Shown piece by piece: positions 32,935 through 60,793 of a stretch of DNA of 64,000 nucleotides (positions are counted from its first letter, which is position 1; each line of letters begins with the position of its first letter). The stretch spans positions 1 through 64,000 of the forward strand of contig NZ_LAQL01000010.1 in NCBI RefSeq assembly GCF_001026905.1. Direction: 5' to 3'. The DNA comes from Kiloniella spongiae. GTDB lineage: Bacteria > Pseudomonadota > Alphaproteobacteria > Kiloniellales > Kiloniellaceae. The position numbers were made by a program, and so were the translations under genes. Under the pieces are notes generated by a model, which saw only the letters and a program-made list of their open reading frames with translations, had not been told where the DNA came from and did not search any database.

Positions 32935-32954
32935 ATAATTTCAAATGAAACTAT
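32935..32954. promoter_or_regulatory. Predicted MarR-type operator upstream of hppD
   Basis: ATAATTTCAAATGAAACTAT matches 18 of 20 positions of the perfect palindromic core upstream of the TRAP transporter operon (38602-38621). It lies 33 bases before a small open frame and about 225 bases before hppD. The shared site suggests common control by the MarR protein at 35025-35522. Confidence 0.6.
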
Positions 32955-32986
32955 TTTCTAATCATTTTAACTAAGGGTTATACGCG

Positions 32987-33145
32987 ATGAAAAAATATCA
33001 CCGTACAAAAACAGCTCTTAGTTATGGTGTTTGTGCTTTTCGCTTGATAACGCGCACAAAGATACTTGCCCCCTACATTGTTTTAACAATCGGGCAAGCT
33101 CTATCCAATGAAAACAGAGGCTTATCCAGAGGGTCCCCACAGTAA
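32987..33145 (+). CDS. Possible 52-residue small protein or leader peptide upstream of hppD
   Basis: An ATG with a good ribosome binding site (AAGGG, 9 bases before it) opens a 52-codon frame. It starts MKKYHRTKTALSYGVCAFR and ends at a TAA 35 bases before hppD. I recognise no family. It is basic, with three Tyr and one Phe in its first 30 residues, and sits just after the predicted operator. It might be a leader peptide, a small protein or chance. Confidence 0.3.
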   Translation: MKKYHRTKTALSYGVCAFRLITRTKILAPYIVLTIGQALSNENRGLSRGSPQ

Positions 33146-33180
33146 CAAAGTTAGAACGCCCCTAATTTTGATAATTTTCT

Positions 33181-34296
33181 ATGGATAAAAAGATGACCAC
33201 AATGAACAAAATGGCTGAACGTTCCGATTTGTTTGATAATCCTATGGGCCTGAATGGCTTTGAATTCGTTGAGTTTGCTGCGCCTGATCCCCAGGTTCTT
33301 ATTGATCTCTTTACAACGATTGGCTTTACGCTGGTCGCAAAGCATCGTTCTAAAGATGTTGATCTCTATCGCCAGGGCAATACGAACTTTATTCTGAACA
33401 AAGAGAAAAATAGCCCTGCTTATTATTTTGCAGAAGAGCATGGTCCCTCCCCTTGTGGTATGGCGTTCAGAGTGAAAAATGCTCACCAAGCCTATAACAG
33501 AGCTCTGGAACTTGGTGCTCAACCGTTGGATATTCCTTGCGGTCCAATGGAACTCAAACTTCCGGCAATTAAAGGTATAGGCGGCGCGCCGGTCTATTTA
33601 ATTGATCGCTATGAAGATGGTTCCAGTATTTACGATATTGATTTTGAGTACTTGCCCGATGTCGAAAAAAATCCTGTTGGTTATGGCATGGATATCATCG
33701 ATCACCTCACGCACAACGTATATCGTGGGCGCATGGCCTATTGGGCTGATTTTTACGAAAAATTCTTCAATTTCAAGGAAATTCGTTTCTTTGACATTAA
33801 AGGCGAATACACAGGTCTGACATCGAAAGCGATGACTGCACCTGACGGGAAAATCCGTATTCCCTTGAACGAAGAATCTTCCGCAGGTAAAGGTCAGATT
33901 GAAGAATATCTGATGAAATTTAATGGCGAAGGCATTCAGCATATCGCCTTAACAACACCGGATATTTATAAAACAATATCAGACATGCGCGCCAATGGCG
34001 TTGAGTTCATGGATGCCCCGCCGGCAACTTATTATGAAATGCTGGATGAACGCCTCCCCGGCCACGGTGAAAACCCCAAAGAACTTAAAAAGCTTGGTAT
34101 TCTCTTGGATGGTGCAACAGAAGCAAGCGATCCGCGCCTTCTGCTTCAGATCTTTACCAAGTGCGTCATCGGTCCTGCTTTTATTGAAATCATTCAGCGT
34201 AAAGGCGACGACGGATTTGGCGAAGGTAATTTCAAAGCCCTGTTTGAATCAATTGAACGCGATCAGGTTAATCGTGGCGTGCTGAAAACAGACTAA
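33181..34296 (+). CDS. hppD: 4-hydroxyphenylpyruvate dioxygenase
   Basis: This Fe(II) enzyme converts 4-hydroxyphenylpyruvate to homogentisate in tyrosine breakdown. The 371-residue protein is close to bacterial HPPD in length and sequence. The iron ligands lie in [14 protein letters not shown] (His175), [11 protein letters not shown], and [17 protein letters not shown] (Glu). The conserved RIPLNEES and LLQIF segments are present. The start may be the first ATG (33181) or the one at 33193. It is followed by a terminator and faces maiA. It carries the same upstream palindrome as the TRAP-marR-maiA operon and the VOC-FAH operon, linking them as one tyrosine regulon. Confidence 0.96.
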
Positions 34297-34317
34297 ACTC
34301 TTTTAACCAAAGATAAA

Positions 34318-34355
34318 AAGAGGGCGCTTGATTTTACGATCAGCGCCCTTTTTTG
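34318..34355. terminator. Terminator between convergent hppD and maiA
   Basis: AGGGCGC at 34321-34327 and TGAT at 34329-34332 pair with ATCA and GCGCCCT ending at 34349. TTTTTT follows on the plus strand and an A-rich flank lies on the other side. Confidence 0.85.
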
Positions 34356-34373
34356 TGGTAAAATGATTAAAAC

Positions 34374-35021
34374 TTATTCTGCATCGACTTGATTTTCCGG
34401 TCGGGCCTTATCAAAAGCCTCTAGCTTCAAGCAGTTTTCTTCAATTCTTCTTATTTCAGAAAAGTTTGCGATAGAGATATCAAAACGGTGCGCGTTATAC
34501 AGTTGGGAAACCAGACAACAATCAGCCATTCCTGGTTCCGAGCCCAAACAGTACCTCCCTCCTCTATTACGGTTTTTCAACCGTTGCTCAAACGCAAGTA
34601 ATCCTTCCAACACCCAATGTTCGTACCATGTGGATTTCTGATCTTGGGAAAGTAACATTTCCCCTGTTAGATACTTAAGAACTCTCAGGTTATTTATCGG
34701 ATGAATGTCGCAGCAGACTAGTTGGGATAAACTTCGGATAAACGCTCTATCAGCTGCATTATCCGGCAATAAATTATGTCCGGGCAGGACTTCATCCAGA
34801 TACTCAATAATTGCCATTGACTGCGTTAGAGTTCCGCTTTCTTTTGTTTTCAAAGCTGGCACAAGTTTTTGTGGATTTATCTCTTTGTACTTTTCCTTTA
34901 GCTGCTCACCGCCATTTTTAACCAAGTGAACAGGAATAATATCGTATTGAGCCTGTTTGAGGTTTAAGGCAATTCGAACACGATAGGCTGCTGTTGATCT
35001 CCAGTAACTGTAGAGCTTCAT
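34374..35021 (-). CDS. maiA: Maleylacetoacetate isomerase (zeta-class glutathione transferase)
   Basis: MaiA isomerises maleylacetoacetate to fumarylacetoacetate with glutathione as cofactor. The 215-residue protein has a thioredoxin-like N-terminal domain starting MKLYSYWRSTAAYRVRIAL. This is the zeta-class motif, with Ser-Thr-Ala where others have Ser-Ser-Cys. LVPAL and the glutathione-binding QSMAIIEYLDE follow, then an all-helical C-terminal domain with GMADCCLVSQLYNA. It begins 3 bases after the marR stop and appears to be the last gene of the dctPQM-marR-maiA operon. Confidence 0.9.
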   Translation of the reverse strand: MKLYSYWRSTAAYRVRIALNLKQAQYDIIPVHLVKNGGEQLKEKYKEINPQKLVPALKTKESGTLTQSMAIIEYLDEVLPGHNLLPDNAADRAFIRSLSQLVCCDIHPINNLRVLKYLTGEMLLSQDQKSTWYEHWVLEGLLAFEQRLKNRNRGGRYCLGSEPGMADCCLVSQLYNAHRFDISIANFSEIRRIEENCLKLEAFDKARPENQVDAE

Positions 35022-35024
35022 CGA

Positions 35025-35522
35025 TTAGATATCCTCGACCAGTTTATCCGCACCAAAGCATTGATCTGCGTTTTTCAAGACGCGTCCCATAAGGTTTTCC
35101 AGAGTTTCTTTTTCATCTTTGCTCAGACCATCAAGAATTTCCTGCTCACGCTTCAAGACAAGAGGAATAAGCTCTTGAAGCGTATCACTCCCCTTCTCGG
35201 TCAACAGTAAATTCACCTTACGCTTATCAATTTCATCGACATGGCGTTCAATAAATTCTCTTTCCAAAAGACCTTTGATCGCTCTGCTTACCTGGACCTT
35301 ATCCAGACTTGAATAATCGACGACCTCGCTGGCGGAAAGAGGTTGGCTATTGCCCAAAACAACCATCACCCGCCATTGATACACGGTAAGCCCTTTGGAC
35401 TTTGTATAGACTTCAGCAACGGACTGGCTCACTGAGCGATAAAAAACACGGACTTTATAAGGGAAGAAGTCTTTTAAATCCAAAACTTCATTATTTGATT
35501 TCGATGAATTTTGTTTAGTCAT
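35025..35522 (-). CDS. MarR-family transcriptional regulator, probable regulator of the tyrosine/homogentisate genes
   Basis: The 165-residue winged-helix protein has a dimerising helical N-terminus, the recognition helix region DYSSLDKVQVSRAIKGLLE and the wing DEIDKRKVNLLLTEKG. MarR proteins usually repress until a phenolic or acidic ligand binds. It sits between the TRAP transporter genes and maiA. The three 20-bp palindromes at 32935, 38602 and 60773 stand upstream of hppD, its own operon and the VOC-FAH pair, so it is the natural candidate to bind them. The ligand could be homogentisate or 4-hydroxyphenylpyruvate. Both binding and ligand are inference. Confidence 0.9.
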   Translation of the reverse strand: MTKQNSSKSNNEVLDLKDFFPYKVRVFYRSVSQSVAEVYTKSKGLTVYQWRVMVVLGNSQPLSASEVVDYSSLDKVQVSRAIKGLLEREFIERHVDEIDKRKVNLLLTEKGSDTLQELIPLVLKREQEILDGLSKDEKETLENLMGRVLKNADQCFGADKLVEDI

Positions 35523-35591
35523 TTTATCTTATATGCCATGTTTTTGTATGAATTAAGTTACTTACACTTTTGCGGGTTTATTCCAAACCAG

Positions 35592-36896
35592 CTAATCCAT
35601 CAATAAAGCTGGAAGCCATAGGGAAAGCGTCGGGAACAGGATCAAAAGGGTCAATCGAACAACGTCCGCCATTAGAAATGCGACAACGCCCCGGCTTATA
35701 GTTTGTAATTTCAATCCCGGTGTTCCGGCCATAATAATAAACAGGTTCATTCCCACAGGTGGGGTAATCAATCCAACCTCGACAACGGAAACCATAATTA
35801 CACCAAACCAGATTGGGTCAAAACCCATGTTGGTAATCAAAGGATAGACAAACGGCAACGTCAGCAAAATCATCGATAGCGCATCCATGAAACACCCAAG
35901 GATGATGTAGAAGACAATTAGCAGTATCAGGATGGTATATTCATTCCATCCTAACTCGCTGACGTAAGCGACCAAAGCTTGCGGAAGGCCTGTTGTCTCA
36001 ACAAAGTAGTTGAATACCGCGGTTCCAATGAGGATCATAAAAATCATTCCCGTCGAACTGGCGGTCTCTTCCAAGCATTCTATAAATGTTTGCCGATCCA
36101 TCTTTCGCTTGAGTAATGCGAGAAAAAAGGCACCAATTGCGCCAATTGCCGCGGCCTCGGTTGGGGAGAACCACCCAGCGTAAATTCCACCTATGACAAC
36201 AGTAAATAACAAAATTACAGGCCAGACATTTAGCATGGAAATAATCCGCCCTGACCAGTCAACAGGTATGTCCGCCGGGGCCAATTCAGGATTTCGAGCT
36301 GTTTTTATGCGCACAGCAAGCATATAGAGTATCGTAGCAAGTAAACCGGGGATCAGGGCTGCCGCAAAAAGACGGCCAATCGATTGTTCGGTCAGAATAG
36401 CATAAATCACCATAATAACACTGGGCGGAATTAAGACCCCAAGCGTTCCACCAGCAGCAATTGTGGCGCTTGCCAAGCCATCATCATAGTTCCGCCGACG
36501 CATTTCAGGCATTGCGACACGACACATGGTTGCCGCGGTTGCCAAGGATGAGCCACATATGGCACCAAAAGCCGCACAGGCACCAACCGTTGCCATTGCC
36601 AAACCACCTCTATAGTGGCCGATAAAGGCGTGCGCAGCATCATAGAGAGCCCTGGACAAGCCAGCTTTTGACGAAAAAACACCCATCAAAATAAATAACG
36701 GAATAACTGATAGCGAATAGGGAAAAATTGATTCGAACGGAACCGACCCCATAATGAAGGCAACGGAATCAAACCCGTTAATGATCAAGCCACCCACCAT
36801 ACCAACAATGCCCATGGCAATAGCAATTGGTACCCTTATGGCAATTAAACCAAAAAGAACAACGAAAGCGATAAGGCCAATTGTTGTGGTTTCCAT
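35592..36896 (-). CDS. dctM: TRAP transporter large permease (DctM type)
   Basis: The 434-residue inner-membrane protein has about 12 hydrophobic segments. Hallmarks of the DctM/ion-transporter fold include PSVIMVIYAILTEQSIG after GGTLGVLIP, the repeated GWFSPTEAAAIGA, and the late GLITPPVGMNLFI. It forms the channel part of a sodium-driven tripartite transporter with DctQ and DctP encoded just upstream. Its ATG overlaps the dctQ stop codon by one base. Coexpression with marR and maiA suggests import of an aromatic or keto acid of the tyrosine pathway. The substrate cannot be read directly. Confidence 0.94.
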   Translation of the reverse strand: METTTIGLIAFVVLFGLIAIRVPIAIAMGIVGMVGGLIINGFDSVAFIMGSVPFESIFPYSLSVIPLFILMGVFSSKAGLSRALYDAAHAFIGHYRGGLAMATVGACAAFGAICGSSLATAATMCRVAMPEMRRRNYDDGLASATIAAGGTLGVLIPPSVIMVIYAILTEQSIGRLFAAALIPGLLATILYMLAVRIKTARNPELAPADIPVDWSGRIISMLNVWPVILLFTVVIGGIYAGWFSPTEAAAIGAIGAFFLALLKRKMDRQTFIECLEETASSTGMIFMILIGTAVFNYFVETTGLPQALVAYVSELGWNEYTILILLIVFYIILGCFMDALSMILLTLPFVYPLITNMGFDPIWFGVIMVSVVEVGLITPPVGMNLFIIMAGTPGLKLQTISRGVVAFLMADVVRLTLLILFPTLSLWLPALLMD

Positions 36897-37423
36897 TAGC
36901 TCTTAACCTGATTTTTAGTGGATGAATGCAGCTCAATACCTAACATTTCCAAAAGACTGTTGATTAATAGACCGATAGAAACCAAACCGGACAAACCAGA
37001 TCCAAGTAAAACAGGTATCCAGTAATAAATCATCGGCAAGCCAAGAGTGATGGAGATATCGCCATACTGATGCTGTTGTTCTGCTTGTTGAAAACCAAAC
37101 CACGCTATTGCACTCATGAATATTGCACAAAATAACATTCCCATTGCTTGACAAAAAACAGCTGCTTTTTCCGGCATGCGTTCTGAGAGAATTGCTACAG
37201 CAACATGGCTTTTTTTCATAAAGGCATAGGGAATAGAAAGATATGCGGCCGAGATAATCATCAACTGCACCAGATCAATGGTGCCATAGATCCCGACATT
37301 ATCAATTTTTCTCAGAATAACATCTGTCGTCGTAATAAGCATTGCGCCTAATAAAAACAGGATAGCTATCCAGGCAACATATTTAATTAGAAGATTGAAA
37401 TATTTTGATATAATTAAAGTCAT
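36896..37423 (-). CDS. dctQ: TRAP transporter small permease (DctQ type)
   Basis: The 175-residue protein has four predicted membrane helices (about 14-35, 50-70, 88-110 and 130-155). The DctQ-family signature lies in LLGAMLITTTDVILRK and YLSIPYAFMKKSHVAV. It pairs with DctM in the membrane. The gene lies 79 bases after dctP, with a hairpin in between that may lower its expression relative to the binding protein. Confidence 0.92.
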   Translation of the reverse strand: MTLIISKYFNLLIKYVAWIAILFLLGAMLITTTDVILRKIDNVGIYGTIDLVQLMIISAAYLSIPYAFMKKSHVAVAILSERMPEKAAVFCQAMGMLFCAIFMSAIAWFGFQQAEQQHQYGDISITLGLPMIYYWIPVLLGSGLSGLVSIGLLINSLLEMLGIELHSSTKNQVKS

Positions 37424-37454
37424 GCTTCACACGAACGCTTCTATGATGTTTTAG

Positions 37455-37494
37455 AAAATGGCCGTTCAAATTAATAGATTAGAACGACCATTTT
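37455..37494 (-). terminator. Intercistronic hairpin between dctP and dctQ
   Basis: AAAATGGCCGTTC at 37455-37467 pairs with GAACGACCATTTT at 37482-37494, with one G-U pair in the RNA. It is followed on the minus strand by TTTTCTAAAA. Such hairpins after binding-protein genes often cause partial termination or protect the upstream mRNA. Confidence 0.6.
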
Positions 37495-37502
37495 AAGTAA
37501 AA

Positions 37503-38528
37503 TTATTGTTCGTATTTCGCGATAGATTTTACCGCAGCATCATAAATTTCTTTTGCATTATCAACACCAGATTCTTCCAAACTTTTTAGATAATTGGCTG
37601 TGGTCGGTTCCAATGCACGACGCCACTCTTCCCTTTGGTTGTCATCAAGAACAACAACAGGACTTCCTTTTTTCTGGATGTCTTCCAATCCGGGTTTATC
37701 CCAATTATTCCACCATGGACCAAACTTAGCGACCAGAGCTGCACCAGACATATCATCGATAATTGTTTTAATGTCTTGCGGTAGCGCGTTATACTTTTTC
37801 TCGTTCATGATGAAATAAAAACTTGTTGTGTAAGCCTTCGCATCAAGATGATAATCCAGAACCTCGGCAAGCTTAAAGCCATGAACCCCGTCATAAGGAA
37901 AAATCGTACCGTCGATTACACCTTTTTGCAGATTTTCATAAACCTGCGTGGGCGGAAGACCAATCGGTGTCGCCCCCAGTTGCTTGAGCATCATGGATGT
38001 TGCTGCCGAAGGCGCACGCACGCGTAATCCGGCAAGATCATCCATGGTTTTAACTTGTTTGCCCCGGGTATGAATAAGGCCGGGATTATGAGCATGTAAA
38101 GCAAGAACCTTTAGCCCTTTATATTCTTCGGCAAGATAGGTCGGATACAAATCCCATAGCGTTCTGGATGCTGCATCTGATGATTTTGCCAAAAAGGGTA
38201 GATCCATAATCAACGTACGTGGCAAACGACCACGAGGGAAACCTGTCAGGCCGTGAGAAATATCAACAACGCCTGCTTTTACTTGATCATATTGCTTTGC
38301 AACATGTCCAAAGGCAGATCCGGCAGGAAAGATTGTTACCTTGACCTGTCCACCACTCCGTTCTTCTAGTTCTTTTGCCCAAGGTTCAAGAAATTGCGTT
38401 TGCGTCGGATGAGACGATGGTAAAAAATGACTAAGTTTTAATTCGATTTCTGCCCCGATAGCATTTGAAAAAATAGCTGTTAATGCAATACTTGCAACTG
38501 TTGTCAGTGCTATGAGAGTACGCTTCAT
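37503..38528 (-). CDS. dctP: TRAP transporter periplasmic substrate-binding protein (DctP type)
   Basis: The 341-residue protein has a Sec signal peptide (MKRTLIALTTVASIALTAIF, cleavage near IGA-EIE) and a DctP fold. It shows LKLSHFLPSSHPTQTQFLEPWAKELEERSGGQV and the substrate-carboxylate region GLRVRAPSAATSMMLKQLGATPIGLPPTQVYENLQKGVIDG, with the conserved arginine that binds a carboxylate. It is first in the dctPQM-marR-maiA operon, 72 bases downstream of a perfect palindrome that is probably its operator. Regulation together with hppD suggests an aromatic or alpha-keto acid ligand. Confidence 0.93.
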   Translation of the reverse strand: MKRTLIALTTVASIALTAIFSNAIGAEIELKLSHFLPSSHPTQTQFLEPWAKELEERSGGQVKVTIFPAGSAFGHVAKQYDQVKAGVVDISHGLTGFPRGRLPRTLIMDLPFLAKSSDAASRTLWDLYPTYLAEEYKGLKVLALHAHNPGLIHTRGKQVKTMDDLAGLRVRAPSAATSMMLKQLGATPIGLPPTQVYENLQKGVIDGTIFPYDGVHGFKLAEVLDYHLDAKAYTTSFYFIMNEKKYNALPQDIKTIIDDMSGAALVAKFGPWWNNWDKPGLEDIQKKGSPVVVLDDNQREEWRRALEPTTANYLKSLEESGVDNAKEIYDAAVKSIAKYEQ

Positions 38529-38599
38529 CCTCTAACCTTCCCGCTCTTTTTTTATTTCTGTTTAGATACAGATCTTAAAATTATTTATGTGCGGAACGA

Positions 38600-38623
38600 G
38601 TATAGTTTCATATGAAACTATAC
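38600..38623. promoter_or_regulatory. Perfect 24-bp palindrome, predicted MarR operator of the dctPQM-marR-maiA operon
   Basis: The sequence reads identically on both strands from 38600 to 38623; its core (38602-38621) is ATAGTTTCATATGAAACTAT. It is 72-95 bases upstream of dctP. Near copies lie upstream of hppD and of the VOC-FAH pair. Confidence 0.75.
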
Positions 38624-38686
38624 TGCAAGCTATTCTTGTAAGTCTTTGATGTTATATTGCCACTTCACTACATATGATCATTGGGT

Positions 38687-40750: not shown

Positions 40751-40793
40751 ATTACACCTGAAAAGCAATATCTGAAAAATGAACAGCTTAAAA

Positions 40794-40835
40794 AACTGGG
40801 TGCGAAGATCTTATCAAAAGTTTTCGCACCCAGTT
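40794..40835 (-). terminator. Terminator of the Opp/Dpp-type ABC operon
   Basis: AACTGGGTGCGAA at 40794-40806 pairs perfectly over 13 bp with TTCGCACCCAGTT at 40823-40835. On the minus strand the stem is followed by TTTT. It is 30 bases after the phosphodiesterase stop. Confidence 0.9.
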
Positions 40836-40865
40836 ACAAATTAAAAACCTGACACTATGATCGGC

Positions 40866-41705: not shown

Positions 41706-41764
41706 GAGATAATCTCCCAAACAGCACTGATATTAGCCAATTTTCATGTATTGACAATCGATAC

Positions 41765-41789
41765 AAGTGCCGGCTAGTTGCCGGCACTT
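41765..41789 (-). other. GC-rich hairpin spanning the stop codon of the ABC ATPase gene
   Basis: AAGTGCCGGC at 41765-41774 pairs perfectly with GCCGGCACTT at 41780-41789, with a 5-base loop holding most of the stop codon. No T run follows, so it is not a typical terminator. Confidence 0.6.
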
Positions 41790-50957: not shown

Positions 50958-50983
50958 TAACAGAAGCTCTCCGAAATCAGCAA

Positions 50984-52609
50984 TCAAACATCACTTAGGA
51001 CAAGATCAGCCCCTTTTTCTCCAACCATAATGGCGGCTGCATTGGTGTTTCCAGATGGCACATTCGGAAAGATTGATGCATCAATCACGCGAAGGCCGTC
51101 GATACCGTGAACTTTCAGTTTATGATCAACAACGAATTTTTTCGGATCAGGCCCCATTCTACAGGACCCAGAAGGATGAAAACAGGTCCAGGCATAACCA
51201 CGAATATCGGCGATTAACTCTTCATCCGTTTTACAATCTTTCCCAGGACGAAATTCTTCAATGATAATATCTTTAAAGGCTTTGGTTTCAGCCAGTTTCC
51301 TTAGATACTTTACGCCTTCCAACATCTCAGCGACATCTTCGTCCGTAGAGAGGTAATTGGGCTTTATCATTGGTGGTTCAAAAGGATCGTTCGATTTGAT
51401 TTTGATTTCCCCACGTGACGTTGGACGACAGTTTGTTAAACCCAACTGAAAGGCAGAAAACGGGTCTGGATTAAGCATAGGACGTGTTCCCGCAGGGGCG
51501 CGTGTGTAACTAACGGGCGAAAAGTATAGCTGTATGTTGGGCTGTTCCAAATCCGGGCTGGTTTTAATAAAGCCCCCTCCCTGATTGATACTCAGACTAA
51601 GAGGACCGCGGCGGAACAGGACATATTTCAGCCCGGCAACCAACTTGCCCCACCAAGAGTGCAATTCATCATTCAGGCTCGGAACTGTGCAGGAATAGAG
51701 ATAATCCATTCCGATATGATCTTGTAAGTTCTGCCCCACTGCCGGGTTATCCACGACAACGGGTATATTATGCTCATCAAGCAATTCCTTGGGACCAATC
51801 CCTGACAACTGCAGCAACTGAGGACTATTGATGGAACCACCACTCAAAATCACTTCTTTTATAGCTGTAACAGCGGAAGTTTTCCCTTTGCGGGCATACT
51901 CAACACCGACAGCTTTCTTACCCTTAAAAAGAACTTTTGAAACATGGGCATGAGTGATGAGTTTAAGGTTTTTACGCTTTAAAGCCGGATGTAGAAATGC
52001 TTTGGCTGCAGACTCACGAAAGCCGTTTCGCGTTGTTGTCTGATAAAGACCGATGCCTTCCTGTTCAGCACCATTGAAGTTTTCGTTATAAGCAAGACCT
52101 AGCTCTTGCCCTGATTTGATGAAGTTTTGACAGAGAGGGTGTAAATCCTTTGAGACGTCAGAAATATGCATCGGCCCGTCTGTACCACGATAGCCATCAT
52201 CACCCAATTGATTAACTTCAGATTTCTTAAAATAGGGCAGGACATCCCGATAGCTCCACCCCGGATTTCCAAGCGCGGCCCAATCATCGTAATCCTTTTG
52301 ATGACCTCGGATATATACCATGGCGTTAATAGAGCTTGACCCACCCAGGACCTTTCCGCGCGGCCAATAACTTTGCCTGTTTGCTGTACCTGTATCAGCC
52401 TCGGTCAGGTACATCCAGTTGACGGCTTTTTGATAGTAAGTCTTTCCATAGCCAATTGGGACCTGCACCCAAAAGCGTTTATCGCTTCCCCCGGCCTCAA
52501 GAATCAAAACAGAATATTTGCCGCTTTCACTTAGGCGATTAGCTAAAACACAGCCTGCAGAACCTGCACCAACAATGATATAGTCAAAAGACTGCTTTTC
52601 TTTACCCAT
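50984..52609 (-). CDS. GMC-family FAD oxidoreductase, choline-dehydrogenase-like
   Basis: The 541-residue flavoenzyme has the FAD-binding motif YIIVGAGSAGCVLANRLSE, LILEAGGSDKRFW, the GMC signature PRGKVLGGSSSINAMVYIRG, and the catalytic histidine region WTCFHPSGSCRMGPD. It resembles choline dehydrogenase/BetA in length and layout, and members oxidise alcohols to aldehydes. BetA itself cannot be claimed, because many marine GMC paralogues act on other alcohols. It may share a transcript with the CaiD-like gene 169 bases upstream. Next to carnitine genes, a quaternary-amine alcohol is a plausible substrate. Confidence 0.88.
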   Translation of the reverse strand: MGKEKQSFDYIIVGAGSAGCVLANRLSESGKYSVLILEAGGSDKRFWVQVPIGYGKTYYQKAVNWMYLTEADTGTANRQSYWPRGKVLGGSSSINAMVYIRGHQKDYDDWAALGNPGWSYRDVLPYFKKSEVNQLGDDGYRGTDGPMHISDVSKDLHPLCQNFIKSGQELGLAYNENFNGAEQEGIGLYQTTTRNGFRESAAKAFLHPALKRKNLKLITHAHVSKVLFKGKKAVGVEYARKGKTSAVTAIKEVILSGGSINSPQLLQLSGIGPKELLDEHNIPVVVDNPAVGQNLQDHIGMDYLYSCTVPSLNDELHSWWGKLVAGLKYVLFRRGPLSLSINQGGGFIKTSPDLEQPNIQLYFSPVSYTRAPAGTRPMLNPDPFSAFQLGLTNCRPTSRGEIKIKSNDPFEPPMIKPNYLSTDEDVAEMLEGVKYLRKLAETKAFKDIIIEEFRPGKDCKTDEELIADIRGYAWTCFHPSGSCRMGPDPKKFVVDHKLKVHGIDGLRVIDASIFPNVPSGNTNAAAIMVGEKGADLVLSDV

Positions 52610-52778
52610 GGCTCAAAACCTGAAAAGTACGTTCCAAAATGAATTTGTTTTTCATTTATGAGTAAAATTTCAGGCATTTCAAACTATATTTTGCCTAAAT
52701 CAACAAAGGCATTGTTTTATTTGTCGCTAGAGGCATGGTGATTTGTTAAAAAATAACTATAGTATTGATATAAATAAC

Positions 52779-53561
52779 TTATTCACCTTTCCAGATTGGA
52801 GATCTTTTTTCAACAAAAGCAAGCGATCCCTCTTTAGAGTCTTCGCTGTGCAGCATCTTTTCGTAGTAGTGCCACTTCCCGGAACGCATATCTCTATAAC
52901 AAGATTCATCATCAAGATCTGATGTTTTTTGCAAGACTTCTTTGACAGCCATAACAGACAGAGGCGCCGCTTCTAATATTTGTTCCGCGAATTCTCTGGC
53001 AGCCGACATGAGGTCTTCAGCACCAACAACTTTATTTACCAGCCCCCATTGTGCTGCTTCATTGGCATCCATGCGCCGCCCAGTTAAAAGAAGTTCCATG
53101 GCAACTGCCCTGGGAAGTCTTTTAGGAAGGCGGAATGATGCTGCATCAGCGATAAGTCCAACCTTTGCTTCTGGAAGGAAAAATTGTGCATGATCTGCTG
53201 CAATAATAAAATCAGCAGCGAGAGCAAGCTCAAAACCTCCGCCAACAGCCATTCCATTTACAGCAGCAATAATTGGCTTATAGCAATCATGGAGTTCTGT
53301 TATTCCCGCAAATCCTCCTGGACCATAGTCAGTATCAGGGGCCTCGCCTTCGCTACTGGCAACCAGATCCCATCCGGCAGAAAAAAATCTTTCTCCGCCA
53401 CCAGTTAAAATAGCGACACGAAGGTCGGGGTCATCACGAAAATCGCAAAAAACCCTTCCCATTATCTTACTTGTTTCGGCATCAATAGCGTTTGCTTTTG
53501 GGCGATCCAGTGTCACTTCCAGAATAGCCCCTCGTCTCTCAACTTTTACAACATCTGACAT
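52779..53561 (-). CDS. caiD: Crotonobetainyl-CoA hydratase-like enoyl-CoA hydratase (CaiD family)
   Basis: The 260-residue crotonase is very close to E. coli CaiD. The two catalytic glutamates fall at the same residue numbers, Glu111 in [12 protein letters not shown] and Glu131 in LPEAKVG. The strings [18 protein letters not shown] and GPGGFAG are shared, as is the WKGE-type C-terminus. CaiD hydrates crotonobetainyl-CoA to L-carnitinyl-CoA. One loop differs, [11 protein letters not shown] here against a VPDSGG type. ATG 53561 overlaps the upstream CoA-ligase stop (TGATG). With the ligase and acyl-CoA dehydrogenase it forms a probable gamma-butyrobetaine to carnitinyl-CoA operon. Confidence 0.85.
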
Positions 53562-55639
53562 CAATTCACTCTTTCTTCTGAAGATATACGGATCATGGCA
53601 TCTGCTATAACAACGCCTTTTCCTTTTGGAAGCACCATAACGGGGTTTAAATCCATTTCAGCAAGTTTACTTTCATTATCAAAGGCAAAATCTGCAACCG
53701 ATAAGATCGTATCAATCAACGCATCAATATCACCAGCAGGTTGGCCACGGTAGCCTTCCAATAACTTGTAAAGCTTGAGTTTTTTCAAAGAACTGTGAAT
53801 ATCATCACGGGAAACCGGCAACAGTAATGGTGTTGAATCCTGCAACAGTTCAACCCAGACACCGCCAGAACCGATGACAAGGGACAGCCCGAACTGAGGA
53901 TCTCTTGTCACCCCAATAATAACTTCGGCAACAACATCCGTAATCATGCTTTCAACAAGAACCTTGTCTGACAGGTACGCCATTCTTTCTGCTGCTGATG
54001 TTACCGCCTCAGCATTTTGTAAGTTTAAAGTCACGCCCCCGGCTTCTGTCTTGTGAGCAAGATCGGCACTTACTGCTTTAACGACAACAGGAAACCCAAT
54101 TCGTTCCGCAGTAAAACCAGCTTCTGAAATCGCAACCGTTTCACTTCTGGGTATTGGAAGTCCGTGTTCTTTTAGAATTGACTTTGCCTGGGTTTCATCA
54201 AGTAAAACAATTTCATTTTCGACCTCTGAGAATTTCCTGACAGTAGAAGATACGTTATTATTCGCAAGCTCCTTCCATCTGGCATTTATCCATGCGGCGG
54301 ATGAAATTGCTTTTAGACCATCTTCGACGCCTTGTAGAGGTACGACGTTGTTTCTGATTAGAGTGGATCGTGCTTTTTCCGGAAGGTTTTCCGGAAGTGT
54401 GGCAAGAACAGCCGCTTGATAACCAGAGTTTTTCTGTGCTGCAATCATGGCGTCAAGTGCAATATCCCACTCGTGGGCTTCGCTTAAATCACTCTTGGGA
54501 TAATCCAGAACCAAAAGGCTGATGTCATATTTCCCCTGCATAACACGTGTAAAACAGTTGGTTTTTTCTTCGATATTCCCCCAGATATAGGTGTGGTAAT
54601 CAAAGGGGTTTGATATAGAAACCTTGTCTCCAAGTTGCTTTTGCAACTGCGATGCCTGAACATCGGGGATCGGCTTGAATTTTAATCCGAGTTGACTGCC
54701 AAAATCAGCAATCAAAGCTGCATCCCCCCCGGAACAACTAAGAGAAGATATATTATTACCCGAAAGAGGTCCCGCAACATGAAGTAACTTTAGGGTTTCG
54801 ATCATCTCGCTAAGCGTACGAACGCGAGCGATACCTATACGTTGAAACAAGGCGGAATAAAGTTCATCAGACCCGGCCAAGGTTGACGTATGGCTTAGGG
54901 CAATTTCAGCCCCAATGTCAGACCCACCTGATTTTAAGGCAACTACCGGTATGCCCTTACTTCTGGCCTTATTAACAGCACGACAAAAACCAGAGATATC
55001 ATCAACACCTTCCATATGAAGGCCTATCGCCGTCACTCGATCATCATCACAAAGCGCATCAATGTAATCCGGTATAGATAACACGGACTGGTTTCCGACA
55101 GATATCATGTAAGAGACAGGCAGGGATCTTTCCTGCATCGTTAGACTTATACCGATATTTCCGCTTTGGGTAATGATCGCAACACCCTTATCGACATGCT
55201 GCCCACCATGATGATCCGGCCACAGGGCAGCCCCGTCCAAATAATTTAGGATACCGTAGCAATTCGGACCAACTAAAGCCAAATCGCCAACACTGTTCAT
55301 GAGATCTCGATGATAGCCCTGCCCGTCAGATGTCTCGGAAAAGCCAGAAGCATAGCAAATTACGCCGCCTGCACCCATCTTCTCCAGATCTTTAATCACA
55401 GATATCGCTGGCTCACGAGGGATCGCGACGAAAGCGGCATCAGGTGCAGTTGGCAGATCATTTACCGATGCAACACACTTCACCCCCTCAATTTCGCTTC
55501 TTCGTGCATTAACGGCCCAGATTTCGCCCTTAAAACCCGTTTTACGACTTTGCCGGATGACTTCAGCTGCCTCCGCGCCACCAACAACGGCTATGTTTTG
55601 GGGGCAAAGCAGGCGTTTTATGTTTGTCGTTTTGGACAT
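53561..55639 (-). CDS. ADP-forming acyl-CoA synthetase (acetate-CoA ligase family), candidate trimethylammonium-acid CoA ligase
   Basis: The 692-residue protein fuses the alpha part (CoA-binding [21 protein letters not shown], then the ligase domain) to the beta part, an ATP-grasp domain with [20 protein letters not shown]. The phospho-relay histidine region [11 protein letters not shown] is present. Such single-chain enzymes activate carboxylic acids with ATP, giving ADP and phosphate. ATG 55639 with GGGAAG 7 bases upstream is chosen over GTG 55675, which would overlap the dehydrogenase stop. Its place between acyl-CoA dehydrogenase and CaiD genes suggests gamma-butyrobetaine, crotonobetaine or carnitine as substrate. 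The family alone does not show this. Confidence 0.85.
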
Positions 55640-55671
55640 TGCTAAACTTCCCAGATCAATGACACGCTCAA

Positions 55672-56832
55672 TCACGCACCCAGAGGTCGAAGTAAACCCC
55701 GCGAAATGATATGGCGTTGAATTTCACTGGTTCCGTCCCAAATCCGCTCAACCCGGGCATCTCGCCAAAAGCGTTCAATCGGAAGTTCAGTCATTAAACC
55801 CATGCCGCCAAAGATCTGAAGACTTTCATCGGTTACTCTGGCCAACATTTCTGTCGCATGAACTTTTGCCATGGCAATGTCCTGATCTGCGGAGAGACCC
55901 TTATCAAGTTTCCAGGCGGCCCCCATGGTCAAGTACTCTGCAGCCTGAATATCAGTCGCCATATCAGCCAACTTAAAGGATACACCTTGGAACTTACCAA
56001 TCGCCTGCCCAAACTGTTTTCGCTCTGCAGCCCAATTAACAGCTAAATCAAAACAGCGCTGTGCCCGCCCGACAGACATAGCCGCCACAGTCAACCGTGT
56101 GGCTCCTAACCATGTATTGGCTTCATCAAAGCCTCTGCCTGCTTCCCCTAGGATTTGCGTAGCAGGAATGCGACAGTTATCAAAGTTGAGAATGGAATTA
56201 TTGTATCCCCGATGTGATACACATTTATAGCCTTCTCGAATTTCAAAACCGGGGGTTCCGCGATCAACAAGGAAACAGGTAATTTGTTTCTTTTTCCCCC
56301 GGGGAGTTTCTTCTTCACCCGTTGCGATAAAAACAATGGCAAAGTCAGCTTCATCAGCATGGGTAATAAAATGTTTCGTGCCATTTAAGATCCAGTCGTC
56401 CCCGTCTTTGACAGCCGATGCTTTCATGGATCTTACATCAGACCCTGCATCAGGTTCGGTCATGGCAATACAGTCAATCTTTTCCCCACGGATCGCTGGC
56501 ATAAGATATTTTTCAACCTGCTCGCCTTTACAACCGCAAAGAATATTAGAAGGTCGCCCAAAAATAACACTCAATGCCTGGGAAGCACGCCCCAACTCTC
56601 TTTCAAGTAAGGACATGGTGACATAATCCAGTCCACCGCCTCCGAACTCTTCCGGGATATTTGCGGCATAAAAGCCCAAATTCAGAACTTTTTGACGTAT
56701 TTCCTGGGTTAGTTCAGGAGGAACATACCCCAATTCCTCGACTGTATTTTCATGGGGGTAGAGTTCTTTTTCAACAAAATCCCGAACGGTATCAACAACC
56801 ATTTGCTGTTCTTGCGAAATACCAAAATCCAT
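55672..56832 (-). CDS. Acyl-CoA dehydrogenase, candidate gamma-butyrobetainyl-CoA dehydrogenase
   Basis: The 386-residue flavoprotein has the N-terminal helical domain MDFGISQEQQMVVDTVRDF, then MTEPDAGSDVRSMKASAV and FIT around the flavin. A later segment reads RKQFGQAIGKFQGVSFKLADM. The catalytic glutamate region is RIWDGTSEIQRHII. Length and motifs are those of short-chain acyl-CoA dehydrogenases. It is the first gene of the ligase-CaiD operon. It probably forms the 2,3-double bond of gamma-butyrobetainyl-CoA, the reverse of CaiA. The electron acceptor would be ETF, which is not encoded here. Confidence 0.88.
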   Translation of the reverse strand: MDFGISQEQQMVVDTVRDFVEKELYPHENTVEELGYVPPELTQEIRQKVLNLGFYAANIPEEFGGGGLDYVTMSLLERELGRASQALSVIFGRPSNILCGCKGEQVEKYLMPAIRGEKIDCIAMTEPDAGSDVRSMKASAVKDGDDWILNGTKHFITHADEADFAIVFIATGEEETPRGKKKQITCFLVDRGTPGFEIREGYKCVSHRGYNNSILNFDNCRIPATQILGEAGRGFDEANTWLGATRLTVAAMSVGRAQRCFDLAVNWAAERKQFGQAIGKFQGVSFKLADMATDIQAAEYLTMGAAWKLDKGLSADQDIAMAKVHATEMLARVTDESLQIFGGMGLMTELPIERFWRDARVERIWDGTSEIQRHIISRGLLRPLGA

Positions 56833-56994
56833 ATCACTTCTCCCTAAGACTTAACCGTTCCTGATCTATAGTTTATGAATTTTTTGCCTTTTAAATCAGG
56901 ACGCTAACAGGAATTTCCGCGTTAAAACTCAACACAGAGTAAATGTCATCACTTCCGAGTGTCATGACGACACAGGTATCTGATACTAAAGTGT

Positions 56995-57028
56995 TGGCGG
57001 GTTTTGCAGGCAAAAATAAAACCCGCCA
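56995..57028 (-). terminator. Hairpin after the carnitine dehydrogenase gene
   Basis: TGGCGGGTTTT at 56995-57005 pairs perfectly with AAAACCCGCCA at 57018-57028, 13 bases after the dehydrogenase stop on the minus strand. There is no clear T run after the stem, so termination efficiency is uncertain. The 208-base gap around it suggests that the acyl-CoA dehydrogenase operon has its own promoter. Confidence 0.55.
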
Positions 57029-57040
57029 GCGATATAGCTA

Positions 57041-58534
57041 TTACTTTGGTGGCGGCACCATCATTTGCCTGCTCAGGCGTTCTGGCGCCGGCAATTTTTT
57101 ATGTGCATCCAGTATTTTCCCTAAAACATTCAGTATTTCAGGTTTCGCGGGACAGGCTTTCCCAGCCTTCATATCAACATGCAGGACCATTTGCTCTGCT
57201 GTTGCGAGCAAACTGTTATCTTTTGAGTTGTACATTCGATGGTAAAAATGAAGACGCTTATCATCCAGACCAAGTAATTGCGTTGTCACCCGTAAAGGTT
57301 CATGAGCCGCAACTTCAAGAATGTTATTGATATGCGTTTCGACCGTATAATAAGAATTTCCATTCGCATGGTATTCAGCATTTACACCGACATAACGAAA
57401 CAGAGCATCAGAGGCATCACCAAAAACTTGCAAGTACCGGGATTCAGTCATGTGATTATTATAATCAACCCACTCAGGGTGAACCTTGTCCCCATGAAGA
57501 TCCAGCGGTCGGCTCAAATCATCCCCATCAGCCCATTCTGTAGATCCTGATGTTTGCTCGTATTGCCGTTCGTCATCTTCCTTGAGTACGTTCCCTGACG
57601 CATAGTTAAAACTACGCAAGGACTGCATAATAGAAACAAGACAGTTATCTCGTAGTTGTTCGAGATCCCGGATAGAATAACCATCTGCTTGTTGTTGCGT
57701 ACCTTCTACCATGCGATCGATAAGTTGGTCCGTCAGTTCCGGTGCTTTTAACTTTGTCCAAGGCAATTCCAGTGCTGGACCAAACTGTTCCAGCATATGG
57801 CGCATCCCCTGTTCTCCACCAGCCAGATGGAATGTAAGACAGGTTCCCATAAAAGCCCAGCGCAGGCCTGGCCCATATATTACCGCCTGGTCAATTTCAT
57901 CTGTCGTTGCAACACCATCAGCAACCATGTGCAAGGCTTCGCGCCATAAGGCTTCTTGAAGTCGGTCAGAAATATAACCTTCAATTTCCTTACGAACCTT
58001 CAGGGGCTTCATCCCGATTGAGCTATAAAACGCCATCGCGTCTTCAATAAATTGTGGTCCGGTTTTTTCACCTCCAAGAACCTCAACCAATGGCAAGAGG
58101 TAAACAGGATTGAAAGGATGTCCGATTAGGACACGTTCCGGATGGGTGCAGTCAGCCTGAATGATGGTCGGAAGCAATCCAGAAGAGCTGGAGGCAATAA
58201 TAACATCCGGGGCGGCATGTTTGCTTATTTCCGCTAAAAGATTTCTTTTCAGATCTTCCCGTTCAGGCGCATTTTCCTGAACAAAATCAGCTTTTGAAAC
58301 AGCTTCGGCGAGGCTTGTCGTAAAAGAAAGTGTGCCCTTTTCCTTACGGGGGGCGAGACTAAGCTGGTTCAAAGCTGGTTCGGCATTGGACACAACTTCC
58401 CTCAAGCCGCGTTCAGCATCGGCTGAGACATCCGTCACAACAACATCAATGCCTCGGTGGAGACATCGCGCAGCCCACCCGGCCCCAATAACACCAGCCC
58501 CAACGACAGCAACAGTTCTGATTTCACGTGCCAT
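57041..58534 (-). CDS. L-carnitine 3-dehydrogenase fused to a betainyl-CoA thioesterase
   Basis: The 497-residue protein has two domains. Residues 1 to about 320 are a 3-hydroxyacyl-CoA dehydrogenase-type fold with the NAD motif VVGAGVIGAGW (Gly12, Gly14, Gly17), ASSSSGLLPT and GHPFNPVYLLPLVEVL, typical of L-carnitine dehydrogenase. Residues from about 340 form a hotdog thioesterase with HPEWVDYNNHMTESRY (Asp357). The same fusion is known in rhizobial carnitine catabolism. There the first half oxidises carnitine to 3-dehydrocarnitine and the second hydrolyses betainyl-CoA to glycine betaine after BKACE cleavage. BKACE lies 44 bases upstream here, supporting that pathway. Confidence 0.92.
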   Translation of the reverse strand: MAREIRTVAVVGAGVIGAGWAARCLHRGIDVVVTDVSADAERGLREVVSNAEPALNQLSLAPRKEKGTLSFTTSLAEAVSKADFVQENAPEREDLKRNLLAEISKHAAPDVIIASSSSGLLPTIIQADCTHPERVLIGHPFNPVYLLPLVEVLGGEKTGPQFIEDAMAFYSSIGMKPLKVRKEIEGYISDRLQEALWREALHMVADGVATTDEIDQAVIYGPGLRWAFMGTCLTFHLAGGEQGMRHMLEQFGPALELPWTKLKAPELTDQLIDRMVEGTQQQADGYSIRDLEQLRDNCLVSIMQSLRSFNYASGNVLKEDDERQYEQTSGSTEWADGDDLSRPLDLHGDKVHPEWVDYNNHMTESRYLQVFGDASDALFRYVGVNAEYHANGNSYYTVETHINNILEVAAHEPLRVTTQLLGLDDKRLHFYHRMYNSKDNSLLATAEQMVLHVDMKAGKACPAKPEILNVLGKILDAHKKLPAPERLSRQMMVPPPK

Positions 58535-58578
58535 TTTGCAACACCCTGTTCTAATTTATTTGTCTCGTAATTATTATT

Positions 58579-59472
58579 TTAAGACTGTTTGACGGCATTG
58601 AATTTCTTACGGGCTTCTTCAGCCGTAAGCGTTTTTGCCCCCATCCGCTCAATGATTTCCTTGGCTCTGCACACCAGTTGACCGTTGGTCGCAAGGACAC
58701 CTCGCTCCAGATAGAGGTTATCTTCCAGACCTACGCGAACATGTCCGCCAAAAATTACGGACTGTGCAGCCATTGCCATTTGAGCAGGCCCAACCCCAAA
58801 AGCACCCCAGTTTGCCCCATCGGGAAGCATATTGCGCATCGCAAGCATGGTTTCGCCATTTGCTTCTGCCGCAAAAGGAATCCCTAAGCAAAGCTGAAAC
58901 AGAGGCGGTGCATCAATCAGACCTTCTGACATTAACTGCTTTGCCATCCAGATATGGCCAAATTCAAAAGCTTCGATTTCAGGCTTCACCCCCATCTTTT
59001 GAATAATAGCAGCCATTTCGCGTAACATATCCGGCGTCGAAACGTAGGCATAGTCGCTGAAATTCAATGACCCACAGTCAAAGGTACAAATTTCGGGGCG
59101 TATAGCATCAATATGTTTGAGACGGTCAATAGGACTGAGCATATCCGTTCCCGGTCCACCAACATTGGGGTTTGTTGCGTCTGGCACAAATTCTCCGCCC
59201 ATACCGGCAGTAATATTGATGACAACATCCACGCCTTTTGTCTTCATTTTGTCGCGCAGAAGTCCGACGGTTTCCTGATAGAGTTCCAGATCGTTACTGG
59301 CTTGACCAGTATCGGGGTTTCTAACATGCAAGTGGGCAATCGCAGCCCCAGCTAAAGCGGCCTCAATCGCAGCATCAGAGATTTCTTCCGGTGTTACCGG
59401 TACATTTGTATGCCGATCTTTTTTTATACCTGACCCTGTTACAGGACAGGTGATAATAACTTCACTATTCAT
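58579..59472 (-). CDS. BKACE-family beta-keto acid cleavage enzyme, probable 3-dehydrocarnitine:acetyl-CoA trimethylamine transferase
   Basis: The 297-residue DUF849/BKACE TIM barrel has the N-terminal VIITCPVTGSG, the zinc histidines in IAHLHVRNPDTG (His47 and His49), and VGLEDNLYLERG near the C-terminus. In the carnitine subgroup it cleaves 3-dehydrocarnitine with acetyl-CoA into betainyl-CoA and acetoacetate. ATG 59472 is chosen, with GAGGG 7 bases upstream; a longer frame from 59511 is less likely. It heads the operon with the carnitine dehydrogenase-thioesterase fusion and is divergent from a CdhR-like regulator, which fixes the functional subgroup by context. Confidence 0.92.
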   Translation of the reverse strand: MNSEVIITCPVTGSGIKKDRHTNVPVTPEEISDAAIEAALAGAAIAHLHVRNPDTGQASNDLELYQETVGLLRDKMKTKGVDVVINITAGMGGEFVPDATNPNVGGPGTDMLSPIDRLKHIDAIRPEICTFDCGSLNFSDYAYVSTPDMLREMAAIIQKMGVKPEIEAFEFGHIWMAKQLMSEGLIDAPPLFQLCLGIPFAAEANGETMLAMRNMLPDGANWGAFGVGPAQMAMAAQSVIFGGHVRVGLEDNLYLERGVLATNGQLVCRAKEIIERMGAKTLTAEEARKKFNAVKQS

Positions 59473-59677
59473 AATAATTCCCTCTTTGGGTAACTCCCTT
59501 TTTCGAGCCACCCTATCTATCCCGGTTATGCTATCTCGGTCATGGTTCAGTGATAGCCCAGTGATGGCCTCTTTTCTTTTCCCTCAGTTTAAGTCGGTTT
59601 CTTTTTCCCAATTTACATTTTGCACTAATTATGAAACATTTTACCAAACATCATATCTGAAATATGAGAACTACAAG
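59473..59677. promoter_or_regulatory. Divergent promoter region between BKACE and the GlxA/CdhR-type regulator
   Basis: These 205 bases separate two genes transcribed away from each other and should hold both promoters and the regulator's binding sites. An imperfect symmetric element, CATATCTGAAATATG, lies at about 59652-59666. I could not identify promoters with confidence. Confidence 0.5.
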
Positions 59678-60652
59678 ATGTATCTATTTGGAAAAGAAGC
59701 AGTATCGAAACCTCAAAAAATTGCTTTTTTGCTTGTGCCCGGTTTTTCCATGCTTTGCTTCTCATCAGCATTGGAACCCTTGCGCGCTGCCAATTTTAAA
59801 GTTGGTGAAAAAATATATGAATGGAAACTATATTCCATTCATGGCTCGACCGTACGCGCCAGTAACGGTATGGACATTAATGTTGATGCTGAAATTGCGC
59901 TGGATGACAACATTCCTGTCTTGATCATTTGCGCCAGTTATGATGTGGAAGAGAGCAATACAAAACAACTCGCCGCAATTCTACGAAGACTGCGCTCTAA
60001 AGGCACTGAATTTGGTGGCATGGATGCAGGGAGCGAAATCCTTGCCAAGGCCGGCCTTCTTGATGGCTACAAAGCAACCGTTCACTGGGAAAACTTTGAG
60101 AGCTTTACCGAGACCTACCCTAATATACAGGCTGAATTGGATCTCTATATTGTTGACCGGAACAGATTTACATCAGGCGGCGGCACAACCAGCCTGGACA
60201 TGATGTTACAACTCATCAGGGTTCAACACGGTTTAAAGCTATCTACGGATGTCGCAGATATATTTATTTATCAAAGGTTTCGCGAAGGAAACAACCCACA
60301 ACGACTGATTTCCAACAACCCACAGATCCGGAATAATAAAGTCCTGACCAAAGCAATTGAAACGATGGAAGCAACCATAGAAACGCCATTGCTGATTACA
60401 GAGCTCGCAGAACAGATTGGCTCTACTGTCAGAGAGCTTGAGCGACTTTTCAAGAAGCATCTAAAGACATCGCCAGCAAACTATTACAGGAACCATCGAC
60501 TGGATATAGCACAGAGATTGTTGAAGCAAACCGATCTATCCATCCTCGACATTGCTATTCGATGCGGCTTTAACTCTGCAACATCATTTGCCCGGAGTTA
60601 TCGCAATCGTTTTGGCCAAGCACCTAAAACAAGCCGGCGTATCGTATCTTAA
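59678..60652 (+). CDS. cdhR: GlxA/CdhR-family transcriptional regulator (DJ-1/PfpI domain plus AraC HTH)
   Basis: The 324-residue protein has an N-terminal amidotransferase-like sensory domain (KIAFLLVPGFSMLCFSSALEPLRAAN, later GGMDAGSEILAKAGLLDG). Its C-terminal AraC-type double helix-turn-helix includes ITELAEQIGSTVRELERLF and IAIRCGFNSATSFARSYRNRFG. CdhR-type activators of carnitine genes and GbdR of glycine betaine genes belong to this family. ATG 59678 starts the family sequence; an open frame extends 76 codons upstream without family resemblance. Divergent placement from BKACE supports control of the carnitine operon. Confidence 0.88.
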   Translation: MYLFGKEAVSKPQKIAFLLVPGFSMLCFSSALEPLRAANFKVGEKIYEWKLYSIHGSTVRASNGMDINVDAEIALDDNIPVLIICASYDVEESNTKQLAAILRRLRSKGTEFGGMDAGSEILAKAGLLDGYKATVHWENFESFTETYPNIQAELDLYIVDRNRFTSGGGTTSLDMMLQLIRVQHGLKLSTDVADIFIYQRFREGNNPQRLISNNPQIRNNKVLTKAIETMEATIETPLLITELAEQIGSTVRELERLFKKHLKTSPANYYRNHRLDIAQRLLKQTDLSILDIAIRCGFNSATSFARSYRNRFGQAPKTSRRIVS

Positions 60653-60771
60653 TAACGTGATTAACATAATACATATAAGCATTTGACATTTATATGAATT
60701 ATCTAATCACCAAATAAATTTATTTACTGTTTCTAACGACTAAAATTTCTTCTTCATTCGTTTAAACTTGC

Positions 60772-60793
60772 ATTAGTTTCATTTGCAACTAAT
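60772..60793. promoter_or_regulatory. Third copy of the MarR-type operator, upstream of the VOC-FAH pair
   Basis: TTAGTTTCATTTGCAACTAA (60773-60792) is an imperfect palindrome agreeing with the core upstream of dctP at 16 of 20 positions. It lies about 137 bases before the VOC gene. It joins this pair to the hppD and TRAP-marR-maiA units about 27 kb away. Confidence 0.6.

Follow-up and report, generated by a model that had tools for sequence, protein, structure and literature searches.

Can genes for tyrosine breakdown that lie in three separate units answer to one operator, and which enzyme then opens the homogentisate ring? The question is raised by a 64 000-nucleotide stretch of Kiloniella spongiae DNA (hereafter the window; the start of contig C2, NZ_LAQL01000010.1, of a 4.47 Mb genome with a completeness of 99.5%), in which hppD, a dctPQM–marR–maiA operon and a VOC–fahA pair each stand behind a copy of the same palindrome. 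The initial annotation of the window had proposed that all three units encode steps of the tyrosine pathway, and the gene identities hold by profile matches (hppD, maiA, MarR, DctP/DctQ/DctM, VOC and the FAA hydrolase). We consider it very likely that the MarR protein is a local repressor of tyrosine/homogentisate breakdown over the three units, with ring opening by the VOC protein and import of an aromatic acid by the TRAP transporter. In the sequence, this reading is founded on the sites, their conservation, the association of MarR with the sites, the lack of an HmgA match and the family identity of the VOC protein; binding, repression, the inducer, the transport substrate and catalysis in this species are what we infer from these.

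Three operator copies in the window and in Kiloniella

The three sites lie where the initial annotation had placed them. The first (32935–32954, + strand) precedes hppD (33181–34296, +; TIGR01263, 404 bits against a cutoff of 277), overlaps a −10 box and has one mismatch to the 18-mer TAGTTTCANNTGAAACTA. The second (38599–38624, − strand) precedes dctPQM–marR–maiA and matches the 18-mer without mismatch; it had been described as a perfect 24 bp palindrome at 38600–38623, and the palindrome is indeed there but is longer, being perfect over 26 bp. The third (60773–60792, + strand) precedes VOC–fahA, again with one mismatch to the 18-mer. On recounting, the 20 bp core of the second site (38602–38621) does recur with 18/20 identities before hppD and 16/20 before VOC–fahA.

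How specific is this motif? With AGTTTCATATGAAACT at up to three mismatches, three sites were found in the window compared with 0.46 expected, and two of 100 shuffles also reached three. Over the whole genome at up to two mismatches, the 16-mer AGTTTCANNTGAAACT gave 34 matches, hardly above its backward control (30), and the 18-mer gave five, not above its control of six (a total at up to two mismatches, undivided by mismatch number). At up to one mismatch, the 18-mer occurs in three places only in the 4.47 Mb genome, namely the hppD, TRAP and VOC units, and across nine Kiloniella genomes all 21 places found are at one of the same three units. The genome-wide scan suggested with the initial annotation thus met no crowd of unrelated matches at this stringency, and the proposal stands. 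By itself the motif is weak; its positions and its conservation are strong. Two further matches, C33:228188 and C55:309302, have three mismatches each to the 18-mer; near the latter lie copies of TGTTTCACGTGAAACA, which we take to be ParB parS sites.

The operator before VOC–fahA is present in all eight Kiloniella VOC loci (L023–L030), that of the TRAP operon in all eight near-complete Kiloniella genomes (in G008 at two mismatches) and that of hppD in six of these eight. In K. laminariae, fahA–VOC and dctPQM–marR–maiA are divergent neighbours with both operators within a single gap, which suggests that the separation of the TRAP and VOC–fahA units in the window is a matter of rearrangement. 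The same layout appears again in a genome of another family (G234; L098), the gap of which holds two copies of the site with two mismatches each.

The palindrome follows a MarR regulator

The product of marR (35025–35522, − strand) has a winged-helix domain of the MarR family (PF01047 and PF12802, both above cutoff), and no NCBIfam equivalog matches it above its own cutoff. Its close relatives in seven named loci come from six Kiloniella and one uncultured Rhodospirillales. In a sample of 387 alphaproteobacterial genomes, 100 contain a relative (E ≤ 1e-15), frequently beside hppD with the operator between the two genes: at least 49 of the 84 best marR matches lie within 1.5 kb of hppD, a lower bound as only part of the hppD matches entered the comparison. 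We scanned the 330 bp before marR in the 30 best loci and found the site within two mismatches in 19 of them (none for the backward control, 0.00 for shuffles); the 13 loci in which hppD is divergent all belong to these 19.

The association was then found again in held-out gaps between marR and hppD: the site is present within two mismatches in 32 of 32, and within one in 23, compared with 0/32 for the backward control and 0.01 for shuffles. These gaps span 17 genera by their genus tags, some of which are also in the first set, and are not 32 independent cases; the gaps of G101 and G284 are second copies, since each of these genomes already has a locus among the first 30, and G353 (same strand) and G276 (previously seen, two mismatches) are excluded. 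The positions GTT, C, TG, AAC and the final A are invariant in all 32. Conversely, no site was found before hppD in five hppD–VOC–fahA operons from two genera that have no marR nearby (the best matches have 5–7 mismatches), and their genomes contain no marR relative at E ≤ 1e-15. The site accompanies marR relatives and is absent before hppD in these five marR-free operons; the palindrome therefore follows MarR.

These data bear on two other explanations. The A+T-rich window could have produced three similar sites by chance, as the poor showing of the motif at two mismatches and the two shuffles out of 100 would allow; with the site kept in eight Kiloniella genomes, we give this practically no probability, and the 32 held-out gaps rule it out. 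Alternatively, the palindrome could be bound by another regulator, such as a paralogous MarR or the AraC-type protein encoded at 59450–60652, with the MarR beside maiA a bystander. The AraC-type gene does adjoin the VOC operator, and binding by MarR is itself a prediction; yet the site travels with marR relatives through other genera and loci and was not found before hppD in the five operons, of two genera, that lack marR, which makes a different regulator very improbable. We thus retain the proposal that one operator, with its footprints in eight Kiloniella genomes and in the held-out gaps, links the three units in a shared tyrosine/homogentisate role, and that the probable regulator of these sites is the MarR of the TRAP operon.

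Several observations weigh against a uniform regulon. Neither K. laminariae genome shows a site upstream of hppD at up to two mismatches; in one of them (G002) hppD is a different gene, with 57% identity, in an hppD–fahA–maiA operon. Eleven of the 30 top marR loci lack a site within two mismatches just upstream of marR, although four of the eleven have marR within a TRAP operon, the operator of which precedes dctP. At the TRAP operator of the window, no promoter was called by our scan, and a TATAGT at the place that corresponds to the hppD −10 box is found in only five of eight aligned rows, those of K. laminariae and G008 being without it.

A probable VOC-type homogentisate 1,2-dioxygenase

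The 99.5% complete genome contains no match to the cupin homogentisate dioxygenase HmgA, either by TIGR01015 (E ≤ 0.001) or by PF04209 (E ≤ 1), and it has the rest of the pathway. In the place of HmgA stands the VOC gene (60930–61466, + strand; the open frame reaches upstream to 60852, with a conserved start near 60930), followed by fahA (fumarylacetoacetate hydrolase; 61503–62522, +; PF01557 and PF18288). The nearest solved structure to the VOC protein is PDB entry 9U42, released on 2025-07-23 under the title ‘Crystal Structure of Homogentisate 1,2-Dioxygenase from Acinetobacter in Complex with Zn ion’ (60% identity; E = 1.3e-73, residues 28–203 of the 204-codon open frame against 4–181; TM scores of 0.84/0.88 for an AlphaFold model with a pLDDT of 90.9). 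His7/His8, His85 and Glu133, a 2-His-1-Glu set that we presume from the VOC family rule to be the metal ligands, are invariant in 28 aligned VOC sequences; the alignments exclude L058, L061, L063, L067 and L069, in which a stop interrupts the extended frame.

The gene is present in eight of nine Kiloniella genomes, the ninth being 77% complete. Elsewhere, it is found within hppD–VOC–fahA–maiA operons (L090 and L092) and hppD–VOC–fahA operons (L091, L095, L099, L102 and L103), which together represent seven genomes and three genera; in L101 and L056, hppD is its neighbour and fahA is not. An Enterobacter plasmid carries VOC–MFS–fahA–maiA. An Acinetobacter baumannii plasmid carries fahA–maiA–VOC, an IclR gene and hppD, and a 3.97 Mb A. 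baumannii record (classed as a plasmid) that has fahA–maiA–VOC and hppD in its cluster contains no HmgA match. No other pathway gene was found close to VOC in loci such as L084, L086, L087, L100 and L104–L107.

The distribution of the two enzyme types points in the same direction. In the class-wide sample, 131 genomes have hppD over the cutoff; VOC is present in 16 of the 22 that lack an HmgA match, compared with six of the 109 that contain one (odds ratio 46, Fisher p = 3e-11, statistics that ignore relatedness). Here VOC was counted at more than 200 bits, which leaves aside 11 genomes with 133–188 bits, six of them with hppD and an HmgA match; if these weaker matches are included, the counts become 16/22 and 12/109 (odds ratio 22, p = 9e-9, with the same disregard of relatedness). 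HmgA was counted at any TIGR01015 match with E ≤ 0.001, giving 137 genomes, of which 58 are over the curated cutoff and more than half under it. The 16 genomes with VOC and hppD but no HmgA match belong to nine genera, and one genus (g59) includes two genomes with VOC alone, two with HmgA alone and one with both.

Could the VOC protein instead be an accessory, detoxifying an intermediate in the manner of a glyoxalase or thiol transferase, while an unrecognized enzyme encoded elsewhere cleaves homogentisate? The fold is common to glyoxalases and fosfomycin thiol transferases, and among the hppD genomes there are six in which VOC occurs together with an HmgA match and six with neither. Our main reading has also to reckon with five VOC genomes without hppD over the cutoff, with the VOC relatives beside FAD_binding_3 proteins in L089 and L094, and with the fact that 60% identity to 9U42 does not prove a substrate. 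The genomes that depart from the pattern suggest that VOC perhaps serves in other routes too; the relatives in L089 and L094 may cleave homogentisate derived from hydroxyphenylacetates, or another hydroquinone. Against an accessory role in the window stand the genome without an HmgA match, the complementarity of VOC and HmgA, the position of the gene between hppD and fahA in operons of other genomes, the A. baumannii record and the title of 9U42, and we judge such a role improbable. The VOC protein of the window is very probably a homogentisate 1,2-dioxygenase. The initial annotation had assigned this enzyme to the pathway without naming its step; complementarity with HmgA, the hppD–VOC–fahA operons and 9U42 now allow this putative name. 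The kind of enzyme has been known since 2025 at the latest, through 9U42 (our literature search found no paper on this entry, which is not proof of absence), and its place in a regulon appears to be new.

Three side observations concern these loci. Firstly, TIGR01015 matches in the 387 genomes fall into a full-length group (at least 574 bits) and a large group at about 58–100 bits, some of them adjoining hppD (for example G284:C2:67323–68150); the latter group may represent another HmgA-like type, short and under the equivalog cutoff. Secondly, an MBL-fold hydrolase (PF00753; L055:4913–5872) recurs in loci with VOC, fahA or hmgA, with relatives in L070/L097, L098, L114, L108, L088, L115, L089, L093 and L116; G008 is the only one of the nine Kiloniella genomes to have it (E ≤ 1e-20), with TTGTTTCAAATGAAACTT about 60 bp before the gene, and it is a possible additional pathway enzyme and regulon member. 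Thirdly, a TAGTTTCATTTGATACTT-like site with two mismatches (G000:C66:166022–166039) lies between two open reading frames (ASCH-like and MBL-fold, judged from translations alone) and was found in five Kiloniella genomes; it could have arisen by chance or could serve as a fourth, weak operator. The MBL-fold frame beside it is not significantly similar to the MBL gene that occurs in the VOC clusters (E = 2.9).

A TRAP transporter with aromatic-acid relatives

The operon behind the perfect palindrome encodes, on the − strand, the TRAP solute-binding protein DctP (37503–38528; PF03480), the small permease DctQ (36896–37423; PF04290), the large permease DctM (35592–36896; PF06808, with TIGR00786 above cutoff), MarR and the maleylacetoacetate isomerase MaiA (34374–35021; TIGR01262, 278 bits against a cutoff of 171). 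TRAP systems frequently transport dicarboxylates, and fumarate is a product of the pathway, so the transporter could carry a C4-dicarboxylate and owe its position in the operon to product handling rather than to aromatic uptake. However, the four closest solved relatives of DctP are TarP_Csal (two sequences) and a marine binding protein (two versions), with E values from 3e-57 to 6e-56; by their titles, the TarP_Csal structures contain coumarate, ferulate and caffeate, and the marine protein is ‘specific for aromatic acid ligands’. The ligand of a fifth relative, 5IM2, is cut off in its title. A more distant one, 7NQG, has 4-hydroxyphenylacetate bound (E = 8e-42), whereas the C4-dicarboxylate-binding protein 9dsy follows far below (E = 8e-24). 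The DctP model is of low confidence (pLDDT of 60), and its Foldseek list was used solely for the titles of sequence-matched entries. A C4-dicarboxylate cargo is thus unlikely in our estimation, and the TRAP cargo is likely to be an aromatic acid that drains into homogentisate. This agrees with the tyrosine-pathway role that the initial annotation had predicted for the transporter from the motif.

Operator position, likely repression and a small frame before hppD

The hppD operator begins within the −10 box of a candidate promoter, TTGACT-N17-TATAAT (32911–32939, + strand; −10 at 32934–32939), the best in the scanned region with 11 of 12 consensus positions. The scan total of 15, compared with 14.1 in shuffles, means that the scan by itself is no proof of this promoter. 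Both hexamers and their spacing are invariant in seven aligned sequences (that of the window and those of six relatives, of which two do not differ from each other in this region), and the G-to-A change that breaks the symmetry of the operator creates the canonical TATAAT. Given the overlap of operator and −10 box, MarR is likely to act at hppD by repression.

Between this operator and hppD lies a conserved open reading frame (32987–33145, + strand), with 52 codons in all seven aligned sequences. Its C-terminal half is well kept (about ILAPYIVMTIGQ-L-NE-RGLSRGSPQ) and its N-terminal half is variable; third-position changes are in excess among close sequences, and amino-acid changes exceed silent ones in many pairs. 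The frame was found in six of nine Kiloniella genomes and in none of 52 other genomes of the order, and it has no match in Pfam; it could be a leader or a small protein of the hppD transcript. Rfam, at its gathering score, gave no RNA element near the sites in positions 30000–64000 of the window.

Between the two parts of the regulon lies another gene cluster (50984–59511 and 59450–60652), which encodes a GMC oxidoreductase, an enoyl-CoA hydratase, a succinyl-CoA-ligase-like protein, an acyl-CoA dehydrogenase, BKACE, a 3-hydroxyacyl-CoA dehydrogenase–thioesterase fusion and a GbdR-like AraC regulator (below the NCBIfam cutoff). We presume from its resemblance that it serves carnitine breakdown.

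Discussion

The proposed mechanism would run as follows. A MarR dimer would bind palindromes of the TAGTTTCAWWTGAAACTA type that cover three promoters: that of hppD, that of its own operon dctPQM–marR–maiA and that of VOC–fahA. When a pathway aromatic acid builds up, MarR would be released and all units expressed, the probable inducer being homogentisate, 4-hydroxyphenylpyruvate or an imported precursor. HppD would produce homogentisate; the VOC protein, as a substitute for the missing HmgA, would open its ring to maleylacetoacetate; MaiA would isomerize this and FahA would cleave the product into fumarate and acetoacetate, while the TRAP transporter would import an aromatic acid that feeds the route. 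Judged by gene content, no step between 4-hydroxyphenylpyruvate and the end products fumarate and acetoacetate seems to be missing from the regulon.

Beyond the genus, we think it probable, with less assurance than for the regulon itself, that MarR and the TAGTTTCAWWTGAAACTA operator form a widespread, perhaps ancestral, homogentisate switch of Alphaproteobacteria, one that was kept when cupin HmgA gave way to the unrelated VOC dioxygenase and that gained an aromatic-acid TRAP importer as a target in Kiloniella. If true, the uptake and breakdown of tyrosine-type aromatics would be a single regulatory unit in Kiloniella. The MarR regulator that is frequently beside hppD in Alphaproteobacteria gains one testable operator, and a TRAP transporter gains a likely substrate class. 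For all of Kiloniella, a previously unassigned VOC gene becomes the likely homogentisate dioxygenase, and it is a pointer to the same gene in other genomes with hppD and no HmgA match. Our literature search found no paper on this MarR operator in Alphaproteobacteria, which is not proof of absence.

The VOC enzyme also bears on the literature on pyomelanin in A. baumannii. The portion of PMC7646211 (2020) at hand reports that A. baumannii has no HmgA homologue and that an open reading frame for a type I ring-cleaving dioxygenase between hmgC and hmgR, the same place, is ‘probably not functional’ in a pigmented strain. In the available extract of PMC9431530, a transposon in ‘hmgA’ led to pigment, which was lost on expression of hmgA. 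In L053 and L136, VOC is the only pathway gene to contain the target duplication printed there (nine letters, called 11 bp); the chance expectation for nine letters is 0.07 in this gene and 0.58 in the whole cluster, and a second copy lies outside the cluster. The ‘hmgA’ of that extract may therefore be VOC, a lead taken from L053 and L136 rather than from the sequence of that strain. In the accessible part of PMC11945678, the ‘hmgA’ reference has 633 bp and a 14 bp overlap with a 1308 bp hmgB, and these sizes and this overlap are those of maiA and fahA in L053, so that, as far as these partial sources go, gene names in this literature are unsafe.

Which parts of the Kiloniella system have known counterparts? 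MarR-type control of homogentisate genes had already been predicted: according to the excerpt of PMC5343134 that we consulted, comparative genomics of Alteromonadales/Pseudoalteromonadales (three genomes, six sites) predicts that HmgS, a member of the MarR family, regulates tyrosine degradation and controls hmgAB. Both regulators are of the MarR family with predicted sites before homogentisate genes. HmgS, as described in that excerpt, belongs to Alteromonadales, whereas here the lineage is alphaproteobacterial and the putative targets are a VOC dioxygenase, hppD, maiA and a TRAP importer; the two are likened by description, not by comparison of proteins or motifs, and what differs here is the lineage, the targets and the ring-cleaving enzyme. 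The same excerpt gives homogentisate as the anti-repressor of HmgR in Pseudomonas putida; HmgR is likewise a local repressor of the homogentisate pathway, but is of the IclR family and controls a classical hmgABC operon. In the A. baumannii cluster an IclR gene is beside VOC, in contrast to MarR and TRAP here.

The two ring-opening enzymes, cupin HmgA (TIGR01015, PF04209) and VOC, have unrelated folds and the same proposed reaction. The Acinetobacter enzyme 9U42 shares the VOC fold with the window protein, at 60% identity over almost its full length. Finally, the TarP proteins (7NRR, 7NSW, 7NTD, 7NRA, 7NR2 and 7NQG) and the DctP of the window belong to the same DctP family, in which they are its nearest solved structures at about 30–32% identity.

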